Assembly: GCA_905235525.1 (NCBI GenBank)
Contig: CAJOLW010000010.1
Coordinates: 1 to 64,000, forward strand
Source: an uncultured Bacteroidaceae bacterium
GTDB taxonomy: Bacteria; Bacteroidota; Bacteroidia; Bacteroidales; Bacteroidaceae
Direction: 5' to 3'
DNA length: 64,000 nucleotides
The position numbers and the translations under genes were made by a program. The notes beneath the pieces were generated by a model that worked only from the letters and a program-made list of their open reading frames with translations, was not told where the DNA came from and made no database searches. The first letter of the stretch is position 1. Each line of letters opens with the position of its first letter. Below are positions 7,673 to 48,843 of this stretch, one piece after another.

Positions 7673-9970
7673 TTAGAACGGCATGCCCACAGCGAAGTGG
7701 AAGGCGAAGTCGCGGTCGGAGTCGTGGTGAGTGATGGGGTAGTGGTCTCGACCTTCATAGGCAGGGTCGATGGCTTTCATGCCGGCATCGAAGCGAACGA
7801 TGAAGAAGTTAGCATCCATGCGGAGGCCTATGCCGTAACTGAGGGCTATCTCCTTCCAGAACGTGCCAAAACGGAACTCGCCACCAGGTTGATCCTTATA
7901 TTCGCGGATGGTCCAGATGTTACCAGCATCGACAAAGGCGGCTCCACTGAACTTCCAGAAGAGTTGGGCACGGTATTCGAGGCTGAGATCAAGTTTGATG
8001 TCACCTGACTGATTGAGGAAGTTGATGCCTTTATCCTTACCATTGTAGGTGCCAGGGCCGAGTGAACGCACCGACCATCCACGCACGCTGTTGGCTCCAC
8101 CGGCAAAGTAGCGTTTTTCGAAAGGTAATTGGTCGGAGTTGCCATAAGGATAGGCAATACCTAATGCGCCATGAAAGGCTACGGAATTATTTTTGTCGAT
8201 GCGGATGCTCTTGGAATAGTCAAAATCGCCGCGCACATATTGTGCAAAAGCCGTTCCGCAGAAGGTGTACTGACCTGTCGTGTTTCGTTTTCCGTTTGCC
8301 AAGTGAGTAATAGCATTCAGCACATTCCCCGATGTCTCGATGTTGAAACGTATCGTGTATGCATTCTTGCCATAAGTCTGCTCACGTGCTCCGAGCGAAT
8401 TGTATGAATAGGTGTAGCCCATCTTGGTGATGAGCAGGTTCTCGTAGTTGTATTTCAGAATGGCGTTCGTCCTGCCTAAAGAGTCGAGGTACTGCTCCTT
8501 GAAAGTTTTCGAAATCCAAGGCATATAGACGTAGTTCACTTCCAGCAAATCGAAGCGGTGCTGTACCCGTTGATTTGTGTTGTTCCACCTGTAGCGCCAT
8601 GCAGCAGTGAGCACATGTCGTTGGAATTCGGGACGGTTTTGCAGGTTATATTGCAAAGCGATTTCTGATGACGCATTGTGCTCTGTTCCCCATTCGCGTT
8701 TCACGTAGGGAAAAAGAAAAGAGGGAAACCCTAGTGCCGATTCGGCACCCACTTCTACATAGTTGTTGCCATCATAGCCCTCCAATCCAGTGATGGCTTC
8801 ATAGGCACCACGGATCTTGAACGTAAATGATTCTGAGCCACGGAAGAGGTTCTTGTTCTGGTAGGAGGTGGAGAGGGCTGCACCGAGGTCGCCAGCCGAA
8901 TTGGTCGCTTCCACATCGAATCCGAAAGAGTGGGGTTTGGCATGATTGACGATGATGTTGCAATCGAGCGTGTCGCTGCCAGGACGTTCCATTAAGTTGA
9001 TGTTGGAGAATGAAATGGCGCCAAGACGGGCATAGTTGGTGTAGGTACGGCGATAGTGGTTATCATTGTACAGTTCGTTGGGGCGTACTAACGAGTGGCT
9101 GATGAGCAGTCGCTTGCGGAAGTGTGAGTTCTCTTGATACAGAAAGTCGTACCCTTTATAGTGGATGCTGTCTGTCGGTTCGTTGGGATTGGTCACGTCA
9201 GTCAAGAACTTGACGGTTCCGATGGTGTATTGTTTGTGTTCTGTCGCTTCCGTTCGCCCGTTGTCTTGTTGTAGTTTTACAAGCATCTGTACATCCACTT
9301 CGGTCGAGTTTCGTGCAGTGTCAGCACTGAAACGGATGTCGTCTTTCGTGAACTTGTAATATCCATTGTTTCTCAAGTGAGTGGCAATCCGATTTCTTTC
9401 CCCATTCAAGGCAGTTACCTCAAAGGGGAGTCCTGTCTTCAACAGAGAGTTTGCGGTGTCTTCCACCATGATGAAATGTCGGAGTCCTCGGTCTTCCACG
9501 ATGCGGTGTACATTCCGGATGGTGTATCGTTCCTTGGGATGTACATTATAGAGCACGTTCATCTTCTTTCCCTTCACCATCTTGAACTCTTCCACTTCTG
9601 CCTTCATGTATCCAGCATTGTTCAGCACCTGTTCGATGTCGTTCTTGGTTCTTTCCGATTTCACGCTGTCGTACAGTACAGGTGCTTCACCTAATTTTCG
9701 CCAGAATCGGCATGACCTCTTTGTCGTGTCAGTGCCCGACAGCATGTAGATTTTCAAGGGCACCCTTGCTCCAAACCATTTGGAGTTTGTTTGTTGGGTG
9801 ACATAATCTCCTAACATATAGGTCTTCATCACCTCCTCGTCATCGCACGTCACAGCCACCCCTGTCAGCATGTGCTCTCCTTCGGGAATATACTTCTCCA
9901 CAGAACAAGCCCCAGCGAGCATGCTCAACAAGATGATGATGACATATATATATGGAAGATGGAGTTTCAC
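7673..9970 (-). CDS. tamL: TamL-like BamA-family outer membrane lipoprotein
   Basis: The 765-residue protein has a lipoprotein signal peptide (LAGAC, Cys 22), POTRA-like N-terminal repeats and a C-terminal Omp85 beta-barrel ending in Phe. The barrel contains the segment RYFAGGANSVRGWSVRSLGPG, which matches the conserved VRGF-type loop of Omp85 proteins. In Bacteroidetes this lipidated TamA relative is called TamL and is thought to act with TamB in outer-membrane assembly. The gene is single, divergent from the RNA methyltransferase, and its promoter sits 8 nt from a heptamer tetrad. The palindrome triad follows its stop codon. Confidence 0.87.
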   Translation of the reverse strand: MKLHLPYIYVIIILLSMLAGACSVEKYIPEGEHMLTGVAVTCDDEEVMKTYMLGDYVTQQTNSKWFGARVPLKIYMLSGTDTTKRSCRFWRKLGEAPVLYDSVKSERTKNDIEQVLNNAGYMKAEVEEFKMVKGKKMNVLYNVHPKERYTIRNVHRIVEDRGLRHFIMVEDTANSLLKTGLPFEVTALNGERNRIATHLRNNGYYKFTKDDIRFSADTARNSTEVDVQMLVKLQQDNGRTEATEHKQYTIGTVKFLTDVTNPNEPTDSIHYKGYDFLYQENSHFRKRLLISHSLVRPNELYNDNHYRRTYTNYARLGAISFSNINLMERPGSDTLDCNIIVNHAKPHSFGFDVEATNSAGDLGAALSTSYQNKNLFRGSESFTFKIRGAYEAITGLEGYDGNNYVEVGAESALGFPSFLFPYVKREWGTEHNASSEIALQYNLQNRPEFQRHVLTAAWRYRWNNTNQRVQHRFDLLEVNYVYMPWISKTFKEQYLDSLGRTNAILKYNYENLLITKMGYTYSYNSLGAREQTYGKNAYTIRFNIETSGNVLNAITHLANGKRNTTGQYTFCGTAFAQYVRGDFDYSKSIRIDKNNSVAFHGALGIAYPYGNSDQLPFEKRYFAGGANSVRGWSVRSLGPGTYNGKDKGINFLNQSGDIKLDLSLEYRAQLFWKFSGAAFVDAGNIWTIREYKDQPGGEFRFGTFWKEIALSYGIGLRMDANFFIVRFDAGMKAIDPAYEGRDHYPITHHDSDRDFAFHFAVGMPF

Positions 9971-9993: not shown

Positions 9994-10001
9994 CAAAGGT
10001 A
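9994..10001 (-). promoter_or_regulatory. -7 box (TACCTTTG) of tamL
   Basis: TACCTTTG on the minus strand, 24 nt before the tamL ATG. The heptamer tetrad begins exactly 8 nt upstream, separated by a T-rich linker. Confidence 0.75.
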
Positions 10002-10009
10002 GGAAAAAG

Positions 10010-10037
10010 TTAGGAGTTAAGAGTTAGGAGTTAGGAG
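10010..10037. repeat. Tetrad of TTAGGAG heptamers between divergent promoters
   Basis: Four head-to-tail heptamers: TTAGGAG, TTAAGAG, TTAGGAG, TTAGGAG. The 28-bp block lies exactly 8 nt from the -7 box of tamL on one side and 8 nt from the -7 box of the methyltransferase gene on the other. It covers the positions where a -33 element would be expected. Confidence 0.9.
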
Positions 10038-10045
10038 TTTTTTCG

Positions 10046-10053
10046 TACCTTTG
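10046..10053 (+). promoter_or_regulatory. -7 box (TACCTTTG) of the RNA methyltransferase gene
   Basis: TACCTTTG lies 8 nt after the heptamer tetrad, with a TTTTTTCG linker, and 15 nt before the ATG at 10069. Confidence 0.75.
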
Positions 10054-10068
10054 TACAAAATATGTGGA

Positions 10069-10836
10069 ATGATTAGTAAGAACAGAATCAAGTATGTGCG
10101 TTCGCTGGAGATGAAGAAGTATCGCAAGGCGGAGGGTGTGTTTGTGGCGGAGGGTCACAAACTGGTGGGTGATTTGCTGGATGTGTTTGAATGTAAATAC
10201 TTGGCAGCCACCAGTGAATGGTTGTCGGCACATGAAGCGTGGATAGAGCAGAGGAAGAATCGTGTGGAAGTGGATGAGGTGACGGAAGAGGAATTGCGGA
10301 GGGTGAGTTTTCAGGAGACGCCGCAGCAGGTGTTGGCAGTATTCCGACAACCCATTTATGAGGTGAGCGTGGACGAGGTGGTGTCGCGGCAATTATGCTT
10401 GGCATTGGATGATGTACAGAATCCTGGCAATTTGGGCACGATTGTGCGATTGGCTGATTGGTTCGGCATTGAACACATCTTTTGTTCAAAAGGATGTGCC
10501 GACATTTATAATCCTAAGACGGTGCAAGCCACCATGGGAGGAATGGCTCATGTGCAGGTGCATTATGTGGATTTGCCTCAAATGTTGCAAGGGTTGGCGG
10601 ATGATATTCCAGTGTATGGCACCTTTTTGAATGGAGAGAATATGTATCAGAAGGAGTTGGAGAATCGGGGTGTGATTGTGATGGGAAACGAAGGGAAAGG
10701 GGTGTCGAAGGACGTGGAGGCTTTTGTAACGGAACGCCTTTACATTCCGAACTATCCAACGGGTAGGGAAACCTCAGAGTCGCTCAACGTTGCCATTGCT
10801 ACAGCCATCGTATGCGCCGAGTTCCGAAGGAGATAG
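10069..10836 (+). CDS. SPOUT-family (TrmH/SpoU) RNA methyltransferase
   Basis: The 255-residue protein has an N-terminal substrate-binding domain and a C-terminal SPOUT methyltransferase domain. Its three motifs are clear: NPGNLGTIVRLADWFG, VIVMGNEGKGVS and IPNYPTGRETSESLNVAIA. It uses S-adenosylmethionine to methylate ribose 2'-OH in rRNA or tRNA; the target nucleotide cannot be told. The frame opens six codons earlier only via TTG, and the -7 box overlaps that region, so ATG 10069 is the start. Its 3' end overlaps the convergent small gene by 63 bp. Confidence 0.9.
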   Translation: MISKNRIKYVRSLEMKKYRKAEGVFVAEGHKLVGDLLDVFECKYLAATSEWLSAHEAWIEQRKNRVEVDEVTEEELRRVSFQETPQQVLAVFRQPIYEVSVDEVVSRQLCLALDDVQNPGNLGTIVRLADWFGIEHIFCSKGCADIYNPKTVQATMGGMAHVQVHYVDLPQMLQGLADDIPVYGTFLNGENMYQKELENRGVIVMGNEGKGVSKDVEAFVTERLYIPNYPTGRETSESLNVAIATAIVCAEFRRR

Positions 10837-16108: not shown

Positions 16109-16117
16109 ATATAGAAG

Positions 16118-16212
16118 TTAAAAGTGAAGAGTGAAAAGTGGAAAATCTAAGTTACCCACCATTCGGGTTTGTTCATTGGAAAAGGATGCTTAGATTTTTC
16201 ACTTTTTACTTT
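16118..16212. repeat. AGTGAAAAGT-type repeats forming a long inverted repeat
   Basis: Short AAGTGAAAAG-like units lie on both sides of the gap between pyrI and ileS in opposite orientation. About 21 nt near 16130-16151 pair with about 21 nt near 16189-16210 with two mismatches. The structure follows the pyrI stop codon and could end the pyrBI transcript, although no clean T-run follows. Arm boundaries are approximate. Confidence 0.6.
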
Positions 16213-16219
16213 TCGTTTT

Positions 16220-16663
16220 TCACTTAAGTTTTATATCTTTCAGTTTTTGTTCCTTGCCGCAATACCGACATTTCAGTGTTTCCAAGTCCTTGCGGTAGAA
16301 CACCGTCTTCATGGGTTCGTTGTTGGTGATGCACACGGGATTGGCACACTTCACGATGTTCGTCAACTCTTCTGGTAGTGCAATCTCACGCTTCTCTGCC
16401 ACCTCGTAATCACGAATGACCGTCAGGCGCATATTGGGACAAAGCACAGCAAGTTTGCTGATTTCAGACTCCGAGAAGAACTTGCCTGCAATCTTGATGA
16501 TGCCCTTCTTGCCCATCACCTGACTTTCAAGGTTGTTGCCAATCAGCACAGGCTCGGTGCACAATTCCAGTTGGAGCAGTTGAGCCACTATGAAAAGTTT
16601 ATCTGTTGGGATGTGGTCAATCACTGAGCCGTTCTCCAGTGCTGCCACCTGTTGCTTTTCCAT
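16220..16663 (-). CDS. pyrI: Aspartate carbamoyltransferase regulatory chain
   Basis: The 147-residue chain starts MEKQQVAALENGSVIDHI, the usual beginning of PyrI, with the N-terminal allosteric domain that binds nucleotides such as CTP. The C-terminal zinc domain shows CANPVC and CRYC, the four Cys ligands that hold the catalytic-regulatory contact. The frame is open 21 codons further upstream, but that region overlaps pyrB. The start lies 2 nt after the pyrB stop, so the pair forms a translationally tight operon for the second step of pyrimidine synthesis. Confidence 0.95.
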   Translation of the reverse strand: MEKQQVAALENGSVIDHIPTDKLFIVAQLLQLELCTEPVLIGNNLESQVMGKKGIIKIAGKFFSESEISKLAVLCPNMRLTVIRDYEVAEKREIALPEELTNIVKCANPVCITNNEPMKTVFYRKDLETLKCRYCGKEQKLKDIKLK

Positions 16664-17660: not shown

Positions 17661-17668
17661 CAAAGGTA
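17661..17668 (-). promoter_or_regulatory. -7 box (TACCTTTG) of pyrB
   Basis: TACCTTTG on the minus strand, preceded by a T-tract and CG. It lies inside the short palindrome CGTAC-AAAG-GTACG. No TTAGGAG heptamers are next to it. Confidence 0.65.
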
Positions 17669-17757
17669 CGAAAAATTTTGGAAAATAAGGAGAAGCATGC
17701 CACATTATCTTCATCAAATGTGGAAAAACACGTTTTGATGTCTCAAGAATGCTCTTT

Positions 17758-25880: not shown

Positions 25881-26993
25881 ATGGTGGAGTGGAAGAAATT
25901 GGGAGAGGTATGTGCTTTCAATAGAGGGAAAACAATAACGGCAAAGGATGCCGTTGATGGAGATATCCCTGTTATAGCAGGAGGACAAACACCGTCTTAT
26001 TATCATAACGAATCTAATCGTGAAGGTGAGTCAATCACGGTAGCAGGTTCTGGAGCATACGCAGGTTTTGTTTCATATTGGAACCAACCTATATATGTTT
26101 CTGACGCGTTTACTATAGACCCCTCAGAGGGATTGAAACGCAAATATCTTTTTCATTGGGCAAAGATGAATCAAGAAAGAATTATTGCCACTCAAAAGGG
26201 GGCAGGCGTTCCTCATGTTCATGGAAAAGATATAGCCAATTTTCTCATCCCCATCCCCTCCCTTTCCGAACAATCTCGTATTGTGGGTATTCTTGACACC
26301 TTCACCTCTTCCATTTCCAATCTGAAACAGCAAATTGAGGAGAGAAGAAAACAATATGAGTATGAAAGAGATTTGTTGCTGGATTTGGAAGGAAAAGAAG
26401 GAGTGGAGATGAAGAAGTTGGGAGAAGTGTGCGAGATAAAAGGAAGAATTGGCTATAGAGGCTATACAAAAGAAGACCAAGTCGCAAAAGGTGAAGGAGC
26501 ACTAACATTGACTGCTACGAATATTGTAAATCAAAGGATTGATTATAGTAATAACACCTATATTACTTGGAAAAAATACAATGAATCACCTGAGATAATG
26601 GTCAAAAATGGAGATATTATAATTTGCCAAAGAGGCTCAATAGGAAAAATTGCAATTGTTGAAAATTTACGAGAAGAAGCAACAATAAACCCTCAACTCC
26701 TCCTCCTTAAAAAATTCAGCTGCAATAATAAATATCTGAATTATTATTTGCTGAGTAGATGGTTTCAAGACAAATTAAAAACAATAATAGGTTATGGAAC
26801 TATTCAAATGATTGCTCAAAAAGATTTGAAGAATTTGTCTATCCCTTTCATTGATGAAGAAGCCCAATCCCGCATTGTTTCCATCCTTGACACCTTTGAG
26901 CAATCCATTGCCAACTTGGAGGAGCAACTGGCGATGAGGGAAAAGCAATATGAGTATTATAGGGAGAAGCTGTTGAGGTTTGAGGAGGCTTAG
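25881..26993 (+). CDS. hsdS: Type I restriction-modification specificity subunit
   Basis: The 370-residue protein has two target-recognition domains, each followed by a conserved helix with the pattern SRIVxILDTF and a coiled coil (ISNLKQQIEERRKQYEYERD; IANLEEQLAMREKQYEYYRE). Each domain reads one half of a bipartite DNA site. The second domain (about 26440-26870) is visibly richer in A and T than the first and than hsdM or hsdR, which suggests it was acquired by domain exchange. The gene starts 1 nt after fic. Its TAG stop is the first three bases of the downstream decamer array. Confidence 0.95.
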   Translation: MVEWKKLGEVCAFNRGKTITAKDAVDGDIPVIAGGQTPSYYHNESNREGESITVAGSGAYAGFVSYWNQPIYVSDAFTIDPSEGLKRKYLFHWAKMNQERIIATQKGAGVPHVHGKDIANFLIPIPSLSEQSRIVGILDTFTSSISNLKQQIEERRKQYEYERDLLLDLEGKEGVEMKKLGEVCEIKGRIGYRGYTKEDQVAKGEGALTLTATNIVNQRIDYSNNTYITWKKYNESPEIMVKNGDIIICQRGSIGKIAIVENLREEATINPQLLLLKKFSCNNKYLNYYLLSRWFQDKLKTIIGYGTIQMIAQKDLKNLSIPFIDEEAQSRIVSILDTFEQSIANLEEQLAMREKQYEYYREKLLRFEEA

Positions 26994-27090
26994 GCAGTTC
27001 GAGGGAATCCTAGGAAGACCTAAGAAAACCTAGGAAATTCTAGGGAATTCTAGGGAATTCTAAGAAAACTTAGGAAGAACCAGGAGAGGA
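26991..27090 (+). repeat. Decamer array 1 (TAGGAARACC-like, ten units)
   Basis: Ten head-to-tail units of 10 nt begin with the hsdS stop codon. Clear units start at 26991, 27011, 27021, 27031, 27041, 27051, 27061 and 27071, eight of them with TAG or TAA; the unit at 27001 and the last are more diverged. Because 10 is not a multiple of three, stops fall in all three frames. An A-rich, G-poor leader follows, up to the next ATG. Confidence 0.9.
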
Positions 27091-27141: not shown

Positions 27142-27810
27142 ATGGAGTATGACACGAAGGGGAAGGTGCTGAAGAAGGCGGTGGTGTGGAAATACTTGTA
27201 TTTCTACCAGAAGAGCGATGCCATCTATCAGTTGACGGTGGAGTTTTGCAAGCGTTTCCTCCCTGCTCACGGCGACAGGACGGTGGATCAGATGGTGCAG
27301 GCGGCTCGCTCGGGCAAGCAGAACATCGTGGAGGGCAGCGAGGACGGGCAGACGAGTTCGGAGATGGAGATTAAACTGATGAATGTGGCGCGCGGAAGCC
27401 TGCAAGAACTTCGTGCCGACTACCACGACTACCTGCACACGCATCATCTTTCACAGTGGGACATCGACAGCGAACGCCAGCGGAAACTGCGCGACTTCTG
27501 CCACTCGCACAACGACTACAGCGCCTATGCTCCCCTGGTGGCGAAGATGAACGACGAGGAGATGGCGAACCTGCTGCTCACCCTTTGCCACCAGGCGGAC
27601 AAGATGATGTGCGCCTATATAGAGAAACTGGAGAAGAGGTTTGTGACTGAGGGCGGCATCAAGGAGAGGATGCACGCTGCGAGGACTGGCTACCGCCAAG
27701 AGGTGGATGCCCGCCTGAAGGCACTAGAGGAAGAGAACCAAAGGCTGAAGAAGGAGAACGAGGAGTTGAAGAAGAGGCTGGAAGGGCTAGGAGAACCTAG
27801 GCAGTCCTAG
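27142..27810 (+). CDS. Four-helix-bundle protein with C-terminal coiled coil
   Basis: The 222-residue protein resembles the four-helix-bundle suffix-domain family (the wider S23/Avd group). Near residue 50 it has a DQMVQAARSGKQNIVEGS block characteristic of that group. The C terminus (residues 190-218) is a strong heptad coiled coil, EEENQRLKKENEELKKRLEG. No catalytic motif is seen. Members often occur inside restriction loci, but their job is unknown; binding to nucleic acid or to the Hsd complex is conceivable. Decamer arrays flank the gene, and the second array encodes the last residues and the TAG stop. Confidence 0.85.
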   Translation: MEYDTKGKVLKKAVVWKYLYFYQKSDAIYQLTVEFCKRFLPAHGDRTVDQMVQAARSGKQNIVEGSEDGQTSSEMEIKLMNVARGSLQELRADYHDYLHTHHLSQWDIDSERQRKLRDFCHSHNDYSAYAPLVAKMNDEEMANLLLTLCHQADKMMCAYIEKLEKRFVTEGGIKERMHAARTGYRQEVDARLKALEEENQRLKKENEELKKRLEGLGEPRQS

Positions 27811-27857
27811 GAAGACCTAGGAAAACCTAGGAGAACGTAGGAAGACCTAGGAAACAA
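27788..27857 (+). repeat. Decamer array 2 (TAGGAARACC-like, seven units)
   Basis: Seven units of 10 nt start with TAG at 27788, 27798, 27808, 27818, 27828, 27838 and 27848. The third TAG (27808-27810) is the stop codon of the four-helix gene. Part of the array closely matches array 1 at about 26991-27036. An A-rich leader then runs to the hsdR ATG at 27886. Confidence 0.92.
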
Positions 27858-39484: not shown

Positions 39485-40258
39485 TTATTTCACGACTACT
39501 TTTTTGCCTTTCACTACGTATATGCCTTTTTGTAAACCGTTGATACTGTCAGCCACTTTTACACCTGAGAGATTAAATACTTCCACCTTCTCATTTGCAG
39601 CAGCAACGGATTGGATGCTCGTCAACTCACCAGCAGCAATGTGATTGGTCTTCAACTGGGTGAAGTTACCATTGGACATTTGTATGTAACAACGGGTTGC
39701 ATAGAAACCGTTGGTGGTGGTATCCACATTCACGAATGATGCTTCGCTGTTATCTTTTGCCAAGATTCCATAGAGACCCTGTGGCTCTGTTTGCAGTTGT
39801 GCACCAGCCATTGTGACAGTTTCACCAGTCCCTTCTGCAGTGAAGGCTACAGATGCAATGCCGTTCATGATTACGACATTTTCTGCCGTAAACTTCTTGC
39901 TGCCGTTCTCACCTGTATAGTAGAGAATGTAAGGTGTATTAGGCTTAATGCCTTCTGACTTGCAGTCCTGGAAGTTAAGTTTCACGTCAATTCCATCGTT
40001 TTCCACGCCTACGAGTTTTTCAAGTTTGCAGTCACTGCCAAAAGCCTCATTCACTTGCTCTTCTGTCATAGAGAATGGCAGAGAGATGGTGTTCCATCCA
40101 GTGAAGAGATAGCGACTGACGGACACATTCATGGTCTGACCATCATACTTTGCGAGGTCTGTACCCTTGTAGGTGCTCAGTGTCAGAGTCTGCTGAGCCG
40201 ATGCGCTAATGCAACCGAGTGCAAAAGCAGCCATGAGTAATAGTTTCTTCATACGCAT
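39485..40258 (-). CDS. Secreted protein with a C-terminal sorting-like domain
   Basis: The 257-residue protein has a signal peptide (GCISASAQQ). The middle is beta-rich. The C terminus (about residues 225-257) reads VFNLSGVKVADSINGLQKGIYVVKGKKVVVK-like, the pattern of type IX secretion (Por) C-terminal domains common in this order. It may therefore be moved to the surface, although no T9SS gene is seen in the window. It leads a three-gene transcript whose -7 box is 8 nt from a heptamer tetrad. Confidence 0.8.
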   Translation of the reverse strand: MRMKKLLLMAAFALGCISASAQQTLTLSTYKGTDLAKYDGQTMNVSVSRYLFTGWNTISLPFSMTEEQVNEAFGSDCKLEKLVGVENDGIDVKLNFQDCKSEGIKPNTPYILYYTGENGSKKFTAENVVIMNGIASVAFTAEGTGETVTMAGAQLQTEPQGLYGILAKDNSEASFVNVDTTTNGFYATRCYIQMSNGNFTQLKTNHIAAGELTSIQSVAAANEKVEVFNLSGVKVADSINGLQKGIYVVKGKKVVVK

Positions 40259-40305: not shown

Positions 40306-40313
40306 CAAAGATA
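40306..40313 (-). promoter_or_regulatory. -7 box (TATCTTTG) of the secreted-protein operon
   Basis: TATCTTTG on the minus strand, about 48 nt before the ATG at 40258. The heptamer tetrad begins exactly 8 nt upstream across a T-tract. Confidence 0.75.
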
Positions 40314-40321
40314 AAAAAAAG

Positions 40322-40349
40322 TTAGGAGTTAGAAGTTAGGAGTTAGGAG
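40322..40349. repeat. TTAGGAG heptamer tetrad (minus-strand promoter side)
   Basis: TTAGGAG, TTAGAAG, TTAGGAG, TTAGGAG, head to tail. The near end lies 8 nt from the TATCTTTG box of the gene at 39485-40258. Confidence 0.92.
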
Positions 40350-40452
40350 TTTTTTTACCACTTAACGTCTTTTTTTGAAAAAAATAACAAATTCGTTTTT
40401 ATATTTCGCTTCCATGTCTTCAACTTTCCATCTTCAGCAAAAAACGAAAAAA

Positions 40453-40480
40453 CTTCTAACTCCTAACTTCTAACTCCTAA
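40453..40480. repeat. CTCCTAA heptamer tetrad (glnN promoter side)
   Basis: CTTCTAA, CTCCTAA, CTTCTAA, CTCCTAA, the inverse orientation of the tetrad at 40322-40349. It ends 8 nt before the glnN -7 box. The two inverted tetrads could also pair across the 103 nt between them. Confidence 0.92.
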
Positions 40481-40488
40481 CTTTTTTG

Positions 40489-40496
40489 TACCTTTG
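40489..40496 (+). promoter_or_regulatory. -7 box (TACCTTTG) of glnN
   Basis: TACCTTTG, 31 nt before the glnN ATG, with the CTTTTTTG linker to the heptamer tetrad upstream. Confidence 0.78.
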
Positions 40497-40527: not shown

Positions 40528-42717
40528 ATGGCTGCACGACTGAGATTTAAGGTGGTGGACGAGGCGTTCAAACGTGCTCCTGTATATGTGAAGCAACGTC
40601 AAGAACGTCCAAGTGAGTATTTTGGAAGATACGTCTTTGATAGGCAAAAGATGTATAAGTATCTGCCCACGGAGGTGTATGAGAAGATGTGTGATGTAAT
40701 AGACAATGGTGCCCCTTTTGATCGCGCAATTGCTGATGCGGTGGCACAAGGTATTAAAACATGGGCTATTGAAAATGGCGTGACCCATTACACACATTGG
40801 TTTCAGCCTCTCACTGAGGGTACGGCTCAAAAGCACGATGGCTTTGTGGAGCACGATGGTAAAGGAGGAATGGTGGAAGAGTTTGAGGGGAAACTCCTTG
40901 TGCAGCAAGAGCCAGATGCCAGTTCGTTCCCATCTGGTGGAATCCGCTCCACTTTCGAGGCTCGAGGTTACTCGGCATGGGATCCCACATCACCTGTTTT
41001 CATTATTGGTGACACGTTGTTGATTCCAACCATCTTCATCTCTTATACAGGTGAAGCCCTTGATTACAAGGTTCCATTGAAAAAAGCGTTACATGCGGTT
41101 GATAAGGCTGCTACGGCTGTGACTCAATACTTTTATCCCAATGTAAAGAAGGTGATTTCCAACCTCGGTTGGGAACAGGAGTATTTTCTTGTGGATGAGT
41201 CGCTCTATGCTGCCCGCCCGGACCTTGTGATGACGGGGCGTACGCTGATGGGACACGACTCTGCCAAGAACCAGCAGATGGATGACCACTACTTTGGTTC
41301 CATCCCTGCCCGTGTAGAGGAGTTTATGAAAGACATCGAGATACATGCACTCGAACTGGGAATCCCTTGCAAGACACGTCACAACGAGGTGGCACCAAAT
41401 CAATTTGAGTTGGCTCCCATCTTTGAAGAGACCAACCTTGCCGTTGACCACAATATGTTGATGATGGCAATCATGAGGCGTGTGGCACGTAAGCACGGTT
41501 TCCGGTGCCTTTTACATGAAAAGCCTTTCAAAGGGGTGAACGGTTCTGGAAAACATGCGAATTGGTCACTTGCTACAGACACTGGCATTTTGCTTCATGC
41601 ACCGGGAAAGACCACGATGGATAACCTGCGTTTTGTCACTTTCATCGTGGAAACTCTCAAGGCTGTTTACGACCATAACGGCTTGCTCAAGGCTTCTATC
41701 ATGAGTGCCACCAATGCTCATCGTCTGGGTGCCAATGAAGCACCTCCTGCTATCATCTCTTCTTTCCTCGGCAAGACTGTTACGGATTTGCTGGAGCATG
41801 TGGAAAAGGCTGATGATGACAACCTTTCGGTGGCAGGAAAGAAGGCTTTCAAACTTGACCTCCCGTCTATTCCCGAATTGCTGATTGACAATACGGATCG
41901 TAACCGCACATCACCTTTTGCCTTCACGGGAAATCGTTTTGAGTTCCGTGCTGTCGGCAGTGAGGCGAACTGTGCTTCCGCCATGTTGATGCTTAATGCA
42001 GCCATGGCTGAAGCCCTCATTGACTTCAAGACCCGTGTTGACGCTCTCATTGAGAAAGGGGAGGCAAAAGAGGCTGCCATCCTCAAGGTGGTGCGTGAAG
42101 ACATCAAGCATGTGAAACCCATTGTTTTCAATGGCAACGGATATAGTGATGAATGGAAAGCCGAGGCTGCCAAACGTGGACTTGATTGCGAAACTTCAGC
42201 CCCCATCGTCTTCGATAACTATCTGAAAGAAAGTTCTGTCAAGATGTTTGAAAGGACACATGTGATGACTCGTTTTGAACTGGAGGCTCGTAATGAAATC
42301 AAATGGGAGACCTACACGAAGAAGATTCAGATAGAGTCACGCATCTTTGGCGACCTGTGTCTCAACCACATCATTCCTGTTGTGACACGTTACCAATCTG
42401 TACTGATTGATAATGTACACAAGGTGAGAGACATCTTCCCTGCTGACAAGACGCAGAAGATTTCTAAGGAGAACCTTCACCTCATTGAACAGATTTCAGA
42501 CCATGAGTCTTTCATCGTCGAGAATGTGGAGAAAATGGTGGAGGCACGCAAGGTGGCAAATCGTATTGAGTCTGAGCGTGAAAAGGCTATTGCTTACCAT
42601 GACACTGTGGCACCGCTCATCGAAGAAATACGTTACCATGTTGATAAACTTGAAACCATTGTTGATGATGAGGCTTGGCCACTTCCGAAATATAGGGAAC
42701 TGCTCTTCATCAGATAA
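40528..42717 (+). CDS. glnN: Glutamine synthetase type III
   Basis: The 729-residue GSIII enzyme makes glutamine from glutamate and ammonia with ATP. It is much longer than GSI (about 470), as expected for the type described in Bacteroides fragilis. Segments typical of GSIII include ENGVTHYTHWFQPLTEGTA, PCKTRHNEVAPNQFELAPIFEE and GSGKHANWSLATDTG. It forms dodecamers in studied species. The gene stands alone with a promoter and a terminator of its own, and the divergent side carries the secreted-protein operon. No defect is visible. Confidence 0.96.
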   Translation: MAARLRFKVVDEAFKRAPVYVKQRQERPSEYFGRYVFDRQKMYKYLPTEVYEKMCDVIDNGAPFDRAIADAVAQGIKTWAIENGVTHYTHWFQPLTEGTAQKHDGFVEHDGKGGMVEEFEGKLLVQQEPDASSFPSGGIRSTFEARGYSAWDPTSPVFIIGDTLLIPTIFISYTGEALDYKVPLKKALHAVDKAATAVTQYFYPNVKKVISNLGWEQEYFLVDESLYAARPDLVMTGRTLMGHDSAKNQQMDDHYFGSIPARVEEFMKDIEIHALELGIPCKTRHNEVAPNQFELAPIFEETNLAVDHNMLMMAIMRRVARKHGFRCLLHEKPFKGVNGSGKHANWSLATDTGILLHAPGKTTMDNLRFVTFIVETLKAVYDHNGLLKASIMSATNAHRLGANEAPPAIISSFLGKTVTDLLEHVEKADDDNLSVAGKKAFKLDLPSIPELLIDNTDRNRTSPFAFTGNRFEFRAVGSEANCASAMLMLNAAMAEALIDFKTRVDALIEKGEAKEAAILKVVREDIKHVKPIVFNGNGYSDEWKAEAAKRGLDCETSAPIVFDNYLKESSVKMFERTHVMTRFELEARNEIKWETYTKKIQIESRIFGDLCLNHIIPVVTRYQSVLIDNVHKVRDIFPADKTQKISKENLHLIEQISDHESFIVENVEKMVEARKVANRIESEREKAIAYHDTVAPLIEEIRYHVDKLETIVDDEAWPLPKYRELLFIR

Positions 42718-43410: not shown

Positions 43411-43450
43411 CTATTTTATTATCTCTAATCTCTAATCTATAGACTCTAAA

Positions 43451-44677
43451 CTACTCATGTCGGATGGCCTCGATTGGATCCATGTTGGCTGCTTTCCGGG
43501 CAGGAATGTAGCCAAAGATGATACCAATGAAGGTGCAGACAGCGAAGGATACATAGATGGACCAGGCTGGAATGCTGGATGGCATACCCATAAGCGGTAC
43601 AACAAAATTGCTGACAAGTCCTCCTAACAACACACCCAATAGTCCACCGGTGAGGGAGATGAGCACTGACTCGATGAGGAATTGGAGCGAGATGACCAAA
43701 CCTGTGGCTCCCACTGCCATGCGCAGACCGATTTCCTTGGTGCGTTCGGTGACACTCACCAACATGATGTTCATGATGCCGATACCTGCCACCAGCAAGG
43801 AGAATGCGGCTGCTACAACGAGAATGACCGTGACGGTGTCCATGGTGGACGACATGGTTTCCATCATTTCCGCCTGTGAACGGATGGTAAAATCATCCAC
43901 CTGATCCGCTTTCAGTTTATGGTTGTTGCGCAATATCTGGGTCAGTTCCTCGATGGCAGCATCGGAAAGTTCTTCTGTGAGTGCGGAACAAACGATAGAA
44001 GAAAAGTATGTTTGAGCCGCTATGCGCTTCATCACGCAAGTGTAGGGTGCAATGATGACGTTGTCTTGGTCCATACCCCATGAGTTATAGCCCTTGCTTT
44101 CCAGCACTCCAATGATACGTAGGGGGATGGATTTGAAACGGATGTTCTTACCGATGGCTTCCGCTTCCTTGCCTTCGCCAAAAAGTTCCTTGACGATAGT
44201 GGTGCCGACAATGCACACTTTGGAGGCTTTGCGAATGTCTTCCTCTGTGAAGTTTGTGCCTTCTTCCAATTCCCACTGCTTAATATCAAGGTATTCGGGG
44301 GATTCACCATAAACAGTGCTGGTCGTGTTGTTATTACCATAAATGACCTGTCCGCCTGATGTCACCTCTGGAGAGACATAACTGACGAACTTCTTTTCAT
44401 CAATGATACGTTGGTAGTCAGCCATTTTGAGAGTCTGCATGGCAGAAGGGTCTTGACGCACACCGCCACGCCTGTCGGCTCCCGGACGAATTGTGAGCAG
44501 GTTGGTGCCCATCGTGGAGAGTTCCTGACGAATGCTTTCCTTCGAGCCTTGTCCGATAGACATCATGATGATGACTGCCGCCACACCGATGATGATACCG
44601 AGCATGGAGAGGAACGAACGCATCTTATTGTTCGCCACTGCATTGAGGCTGACTTTGAAGAGGTTGAGTATATTCAT
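43451..44677 (-). CDS. MacB-like ABC transporter permease (FtsX family)
   Basis: The 408-residue protein has one N-terminal membrane segment, a large periplasmic MacB-type domain (about residues 45-270), and three C-terminal segments forming the FtsX domain. This topology belongs to mechanotransmission ABC proteins such as MacB and LolCE. The ATPase is on a separate gene 3 bp upstream. With the adaptor and the TolC-like protein it would move a substrate from the periplasm across the outer membrane. The substrate is unknown. Confidence 0.93.
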   Translation of the reverse strand: MNILNLFKVSLNAVANNKMRSFLSMLGIIIGVAAVIIMMSIGQGSKESIRQELSTMGTNLLTIRPGADRRGGVRQDPSAMQTLKMADYQRIIDEKKFVSYVSPEVTSGGQVIYGNNNTTSTVYGESPEYLDIKQWELEEGTNFTEEDIRKASKVCIVGTTIVKELFGEGKEAEAIGKNIRFKSIPLRIIGVLESKGYNSWGMDQDNVIIAPYTCVMKRIAAQTYFSSIVCSALTEELSDAAIEELTQILRNNHKLKADQVDDFTIRSQAEMMETMSSTMDTVTVILVVAAAFSLLVAGIGIMNIMLVSVTERTKEIGLRMAVGATGLVISLQFLIESVLISLTGGLLGVLLGGLVSNFVVPLMGMPSSIPAWSIYVSFAVCTFIGIIFGYIPARKAANMDPIEAIRHE

Positions 44678-48687: not shown

Positions 48688-48843
48688 CGATTAAATTGGG
48701 AATTAGGAATTACAAATGAGGAATTATTTACTGATTGTTAAGACTTTTTAAGTGAATGACAATCTTTTTTTACTCTCAAATTCCCAATTCAGGTGTGCAA
48801 ACGATTTTGATTTTTGAAAAAAGATAAGTCGTTTTTCTAGCAT

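Follow-up and report, generated by a model that had tools for sequence, protein, structure and literature searches.

Why should short tandem repeats of seven nucleotides (nt) stand at a fixed distance from the promoter boxes of unrelated bacterial genes, and is it their sequence, their period or their spacing that matters for transcription? This question is raised by a 64,000-nt stretch of DNA (the window), positions 1 to 64,000 of contig CAJOLW010000010.1 of an uncultured Bacteroidaceae bacterium (assembly GCA_905235525.1), which is part of contig 10 of a genome of 2.77 Mb in 72 contigs. The window harbors three heptamer blocks of 4.4 units each, and four boxes of the form TAnnTTTG, the -7 element of Bacteroidota promoters, adjoin them. 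In this genome and its relatives, such arrays form a class with one address in the promoters of core genes, from an A-tract to the -7 box: they keep their spacing to the box, end at an upstream border, show no TTTG at -33 and precede genes that are unrelated to each other. The letters of the heptamer turn over repeatedly, even between sister species, while the layout stays constant, and both orientations occur. Since related species often differ in the heptamer at one gene yet keep the layout, these results suggest that layout matters more than the exact letters.

The first block (10009-10039) consists of 4.4 units of GTTAGGA, one of them GTTAAGA, and is common to two divergent promoters. On its left, the linker TTTTTCC (10002-10008, minus strand), which spans the 7 nt after AAC, leads to the -7 box TACCTTTG (9994-10001, minus strand) of a tamL-like gene (open reading frame (ORF) 7673-9970, minus strand), and on its right the linker TTTTCG (10040-10045, plus strand) leads to the -7 box TACCTTTG (10046-10053, plus strand) of a methyltransferase gene with its ATG at 10069. 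The second array (40321-40351, minus strand), read towards its box, is made of AACTCCT with one AACTTCT and belongs to the box TATCTTTG (40306-40313, minus strand) upstream of ORF 39485-40258 (minus strand). In the third (40451-40481, plus strand), AACTTCT and AACTCCT alternate before the -7 box TACCTTTG (40489-40496, plus strand) of glnN (40528-42717). According to Pfam matches, the tamL-like product carries Omp85 and POTRA domains, the methyltransferase is of the SpoU family and glnN encodes a type III glutamine synthetase (GSIII); the product of ORF 39485-40258, which had been described as a secreted protein, is without a Pfam match.

Blocks and boxes thus lie at the coordinates given by the sequence-only reading of the window, whose blocks (10010-10037, 40322-40349 and 40453-40480) are contained in the complete repeats delimited here. 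Its proposal of 8-nt linkers at all four boxes holds in the phase that it used, including the second and third blocks, but the equal linkers of 8 nt on both sides of the divergent block hinge on the phase chosen. For all arrays alike, we defined the gap as the distance from the end of AAC (or of GTT) to the TA of the box.

Chance or low complexity as the origin of the arrays is ruled out by window shuffles, random placement and control periods. A three-heptamer pattern with up to three mismatches had six matches in the window, which overlap and lie on the three blocks, compared to none in 100 shuffles, and TTTTTNNTACCTTTG with up to one mismatch occurred five times, one of these (17661-17675) without an array, compared to 0.05 expected. 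Misassembly of one genome is unlikely as well, because several congeners carry this block at the corresponding place. Random placement and control periods were applied to a congener sample of 830 kb, comprising the window and congener stretches whose positions were set without looking for arrays, on contigs known from earlier matches. Here, 13 of 42 (mostly) noncoding period-7 arrays had a box no more than 12 nt from one end, compared to a mean of 1.34 and a maximum of 6 in 300 random trials, and no box was located 13-40 nt from an array; the three blocks of the window are among the 13, and without them the count is 10 of 39. Conversely, 18 of 247 AT-rich boxes in this sample had a period-7 array, while the other periods from 3 to 13 were found 0-3 times and period 14, the double, 12 times. 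Since the remaining AT-rich boxes showed no excess of lag-7 identity, we conclude that array promoters form a class of their own, about 7% of these boxes, and that no concealed 7-nt rhythm runs through the promoters of the genus as a whole.

In the own genome (G000), the three-unit pattern with up to three mismatches had 51 matches, many of them overlapping, compared to none for the reversed control pattern. We determined gaps for AACTCCT-type arrays at 28 loci of G000, 19 of G014, 15 of G063 and 5 of G113, whereby the stretches of these three congeners are the first-listed pattern matches and hence a subset of the arrays in their genomes. Of 79 arrays, 40 had an AACT-side box no more than 60 nt away, and the gap was exactly 7 nt after the last AAC in 36 of these 40. 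On the GTTAGGA side we found 11 boxes with gaps of 5, 6, 7 or 12 nt, and all 11 arrays also had an AACT-side box. The first start codon, assigned by the crude rule of the first ATG, GTG or TTG opening a frame of more than 60 amino acids, was located 12-95 nt from the TA in 19 of 20 boxes among the matches listed, one of the 19 not belonging to an AACT-type array. The array promoters precede genes for dUTPase, aldolase and glycosyltransferase (Pfam) as well as other core genes recognized by eye.

The spacing is not limited to these genomes. When units of AACTNNN were allowed to lie 0-30 nt before a box, matches were obtained in 40 of 301 genomes of the family. Among the 117 places listed, from which overlapping duplicates of one array were dropped, the gap was 6 nt after AACT in 77 and 8 nt in 17; within the listed places, genus g1 had 57 of 68 at gap 6 (by subtraction), g21 had 16 of 29 at gap 6 and g11 had 12 of 18 at gap 8, so that two further genera of the family, g11 and g21, also have a fixed gap to the box. 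The sequence-only reading had called the spacing non-random and had expected a genome-wide peak of distances. Indeed, a peak is seen in the own genome, in the genus and in parts of the family, and the distances therefore do not follow the peakless distribution that it had named as the contrary outcome. A rule of a single orientation is ruled out by AGTT-oriented arrays of the genus, which have gaps of 5-7 nt in 27 of 43 listed places with a broader spread; outside the genus, 6 of the 27 AGTT-oriented places taken, which are part of those listed, had gaps of 5-6 nt. Likewise, a preference of divergent boxes for quantised distances of 22-23 and 43-44 nt, at which the methyltransferase orthologues had hinted, was discarded, as no clear peaks appeared in the 42 and 90 pairs of the wider sample.

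What does the promoter upstream of the box look like? The -7 box, the place before genes and the short leader are those of the Bacteroidota housekeeping promoter (-7 TAnnTTTG, -33 TTTG; sigma factor ABfr), but there is no -33 TTTG, and tandem heptamers occupy the space between the box and an A-tract, which lies 37-42 nt upstream of the TA. We aligned 69 promoters selected for AAYT at -10 and a period-7 array. In their consensus, an A-tract at -42 to -37 (77-96% A at each position) is followed by four CTCCTAA-like units, CTTTTtc and the box, and AACT starts at -10, -17, -24 and -31, the copy at -24 occupying the usual position of TTTG. Because AAYT at -10 was a selection condition and the upstream A-tract was not, only the upstream border is independent evidence in this consensus. 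TTTG 23-25 nt upstream of the TA was found in 0 of 68 array promoters and in 26 of 125 array-less promoters of the genus, a comparison from which 10 intermediate promoters were dropped and whose loci were partly chosen for arrays. The earlier statement that the array covers the -33 position, with no TTTG visible there, is therefore borne out.

The arrays at boxes are also of nearly constant length. A length of 31 nt was found in 33 of 36 arrays at the standard gap, compared to 14 of the 39 that lacked a box on the AACT side. In the congener sample, 9 of 13 arrays at boxes and 5 of 29 others were 31-34 nt long (Fisher p 0.003, range chosen afterwards), whereas a test of length variances at and away from boxes was not significant (p 0.12). 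This bears on the suggestion of the sequence-only reading that a change in heptamer number tunes expression, i.e. that the arrays are contingency repeats in which slippage upstream of the box switches or tunes the gene. Direct tandem repeats inside a promoter would suit such a role, and the repeat number of the 7-bp repeats before hmw1A of Haemophilus influenzae reportedly varies expression. However, the near-constant length of the promoter arrays, bounded by the A-tract and the T-rich linker and compared between species with one genome per species, does not support tuning by copy number, and we consider this explanation highly unlikely.

The turnover of the heptamers became apparent at orthologous promoters, for which 30 loci each of dut, the methyltransferase gene, Fba and glnN were compared; dut and Fba were chosen because G000 has arrays there, two of the 30 Fba loci (G134, G137) were truncated at the end of a contig and the wrong position was read in them, and arrays were kept at a score of at least 9, which raises lag-7 identity. 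At dut, a box was located close to the start in 23 loci. Of these, 16 had an array, and by eye the arrays fall into eight families, namely AACTCCT, AATTCCT, AGTTTTT, AATTCTT, TTCACTC, TTCATTC and two looser ones. Mapped onto a tree built from glnN and Fba DNA, these families need at least nine changes, and even if families one base apart are merged, five groups with at least seven changes remain. The dut heptamers are unlike within the sister pairs G000/G063, G131/G151 and G127/G130. The identity at lag 7 within arrays exceeded the identity between species both at dut (.77 vs.45) and at the methyltransferase gene (.79 vs.53), where 8 of 21 boxed loci had an array. At Fba, 8 of 23 boxed loci had an array by score, and further arrays are degenerate. 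The possibility that each genome has one heptamer is ruled out, since several families occur in single genomes.

The block between tamL and the methyltransferase gene is inverted in the sister genomes G124 and G142 relative to G000, G063, G130, G014 and G134, with 44 nt between the boxes in both forms. In G081, G128, G129 and G136, which lack an array, the boxes are 22-23 nt apart. The block between divergent boxes might accordingly be an invertible or mobile segment whose inverted repeats are the two -7 boxes with their linkers. The opposite array orientation of G124 and G142 at the same distance is what such a segment would produce, and on visual inspection the left linker of G124 agrees with an inversion. 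Agreement is poorer for the right linker, the inversion is one event shared by two sister genomes, and 29 of 40 array promoters have a box on one side only, so that we regard an invertible segment as very improbable.

As an explanation of the whole pattern, we favor a promoter architecture under geometric constraint, in which a promoter of the ordinary -7 type has the region from the A-tract to the box filled by heptamers that form a working part of it; judged from the sequences, we hold this at about even confidence. About four tandem heptamers would take the place of the -33 TTTG and the free spacer of an ordinary Bacteroidota promoter (TAnnTTTG). The layout, in which an A-tract, heptamers over 28-30 nt, a T-rich linker of some 6 nt and the box follow one another, would be kept, and the letters of the heptamers would be replaceable. 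The array may substitute for the -33 contact: a bound protein would meet a short core once every 7 bp, and candidates for this protein are RNA polymerase with an additional contact at the upstream A-tract and a small cooperative protein coating heptads, like omega of plasmid pSM19035. New heptamers would probably arrive as whole blocks swapped between promoters via the common A-tract and the common T-tract/box borders; for families one base apart, stepwise homogenisation within the array would serve equally well.

Several results weigh against this explanation. No AACT-side box was present within 60 nt of 39 of the 79 AACTCCT-type arrays, from which it follows that heptamers also occur elsewhere than at boxes. 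At glnN, an array was found by score in only 1 of 24 boxed orthologues, that of G000, and the array is therefore dispensable there. At Fba, the lag-7 identity within arrays (.68) was not above the between-species identity (.70). In favor of the explanation, Fba promoters conserve a CTC core at intervals of 7 nt more than the remaining positions (12/126 vs 63/168 mismatches, p 2e-8, 14 promoters), but this core was chosen after seeing the data, the 14 of 23 boxed promoters, with whole or decayed arrays, were picked by eye and relatedness was ignored. An exact TTTG was also missing from 99 of the 125 array-less promoters, so its loss is a weak mark and the contrast one of frequency. Finally, a search for the omega family PF07764 was silent in 21 genomes (0/21), but equally in 14 control genomes (0/14), and thus lacked a working control.

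The main rival is passive copying of blocks together with their linker, in which dispersed heptamer repeats, common in the intergenic DNA of the order, are copied between promoters via the shared T-tract and box; the spacing would then be inherited with the copied block and have no function of its own. Period 7 is indeed the commonest period of noncoding tandem repeats, both among the sampled congener stretches (24 of 50, a further 11 having period 14) and at the glnN loci of other genera (50 of 96), and at the latter, boxes were not enriched beside arrays (2 of 71, random 2.4). Moreover, by eye the dut linker changes along with the heptamer, and several of the 39 arrays that lack an AACT-side box surround another element ahead of a start codon. 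Passive copying accounts less readily for the A-tract as an upstream border, for three genera with their own preferred gaps (g1 6, g21 6, g11 8) and for the core that degenerate Fba arrays keep at 7-nt steps. Overall, we regard it as possible but not probable.

A further explanation holds that a dedicated DNA-binding protein, similar to the ribbon-helix-helix protein omega, occupies the heptads cooperatively and activates or represses a regulon. According to extracts from the account in PMC9499535, omega (ParB) of pSM19035 binds unspaced, non-palindromic 7-bp heptads (WATCACW), present in 7-10 copies that overlap promoters, in plasmid partition, and full stimulation of the partner ATPase requires four contiguous heptads, which may be variously oriented. 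As far as these extracts go, the arrays described here resemble this system in their unspaced 7-bp repeats over promoters, in both orientations and with about four units, several orientations of four repeats being workable for omega, but differ in that omega has one fixed heptad in 7-10 copies, whereas several heptamers with about four units each occur here. The omega system demonstrates that cooperative reading of unspaced promoter heptads in mixed orientation is possible (PMC9499535). The search for PF07764 described above gave no candidate but, with its silent control, is uninformative. Against a dedicated protein stand the unrelated core genes without an obvious regulon and the loose core that is all the heptamer families have in common, and we think it rather unlikely.

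Returning to geometric constraint, a bolder form of it would be a promoter class that is read by period and not by sequence, with a minimal core every 7 bp between A-tract and -7 box that is read by the polymerase or by a heptad-coating protein. If the core were read in this way, recombination could exchange or invert whole blocks while the promoter persists, and core-gene promoters would be rewired by block exchange; we put this forward tentatively, as an idea that is more likely wrong than right. In either form, the vague question of what the repeats are for turns into a direct test of whether sequence, period or spacing matters for transcription, which bears on Bacteroidota promoters working without a -33 motif and on block exchange of promoter sequence.

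How do these arrays relate to known heptamers? The short tandemly repeated repetitive (STRR) sequences of cyanobacteria are heptamers that are species-typical and intergenic. To our knowledge, STRR are not locked to a promoter box. Short heptamers repeated in tandem between bacterial genes are an old observation, for which we are aware of no agreed role. In the portions of PMC4679880 that deal with them, direct repeats of the heptamer TAACTGA are reported from Beggiatoaceae, cyanobacteria and five Bacteroidetes, with up to 43 copies in some species; the majority lie immediately before start codons, and the authors propose a role in translation. The present arrays likewise consist of tandem 7-nt units that are mainly intergenic, as in dispersed repeats of the TAACTGA and STRR kind, and in our own reading the rotation AACTGAT of that heptamer (PMC4679880) contains the AACT core found here. 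However, the repeats treated in those portions lie near start codons, whereas the class described here lies upstream of the -7 box, is therefore not expected to be transcribed and comprises several heptamers that replace each other; unlike in the TAACTGA case, where one heptamer is repeated and related ones are not, many NNN variants of AACTNNN are repeated. In the open-access literature searched, outside which most subscription journals lie, none of six heptamer-array strings was found, and among the matches listed there was no description of promoter-locked heptamers in Bacteroidota. New here are the A-tract border, the near-constant array length, the heptamer turnover at dut and the inverted block in two sister genomes.

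Beyond the family, the AACT pattern with a box was matched in 31 of 395 genomes class-wide, and outside the family the gap was 6 nt in 12 of 50 listed places, the others being spread over 0-30 nt. In other genera, 11 of 451 AT-rich boxes had a period-7 array by a looser score, and some box-adjacent arrays with other heptamers exist. The congener sample contained 24 period-7 arrays in 73 kb of noncoding DNA and 21 in 757 kb of predicted coding DNA, whereby coding was assigned by a crude frame rule and some of the 21 and 19 period-7 arrays called coding may sit in false frames. Since period-7 repeats are common and fixed gaps occur only in some genera, we conclude that heptamer arrays are widespread, while their promoter-locked form is lineage-dependent and strong in some lineages. 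Of the 80 named loci matched via glnN, the closest to the window was RUG14887 (95%); most of the loci belong to uncultured Bacteroidales, Bacteroidaceae and Prevotella of gut or rumen.

Some further repeats were noted. G096, a genome of the same family (genus g13), had 164 matches to the GTTAGGA pattern, compared to none in the other g13 genomes of the search, and the repeat can thus expand in one species. Elsewhere, inverted heptamer arrays enclose a core rich in GC (GCCATGCGG...GCATCGCGTCAGCCT and variants); judged by eye, most of these lie in short gaps ahead of a start codon. They are located at L266:512-600, L282, L283, L275, L273, L274 and L279 of G014, G063 and G113 and at L024:1185-1245 on contig 40 of G000. 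The second array of this element may be AACTGTC, and it looks like a dispersed element; GCCATGCG-cored elements had no Rfam match in seven loci. Within the window, two facing arrays of another family (AAGTGAA and TTTTCAC; 16115-16144 and 16196-16225), without an adjoining TAnnTTTG box, could pair as a hairpin, and degenerate arrays at 48694-48726 (AATTAGG) and 43421-43453 (ATCTCTA), with no box within 100 nt, are possibly decayed copies. In addition, ten-base arrays of CCTAGGAAAA lie before (26991-27085) and across the end (27780-27854) of an ORF of 222 amino acids (27142-27810).
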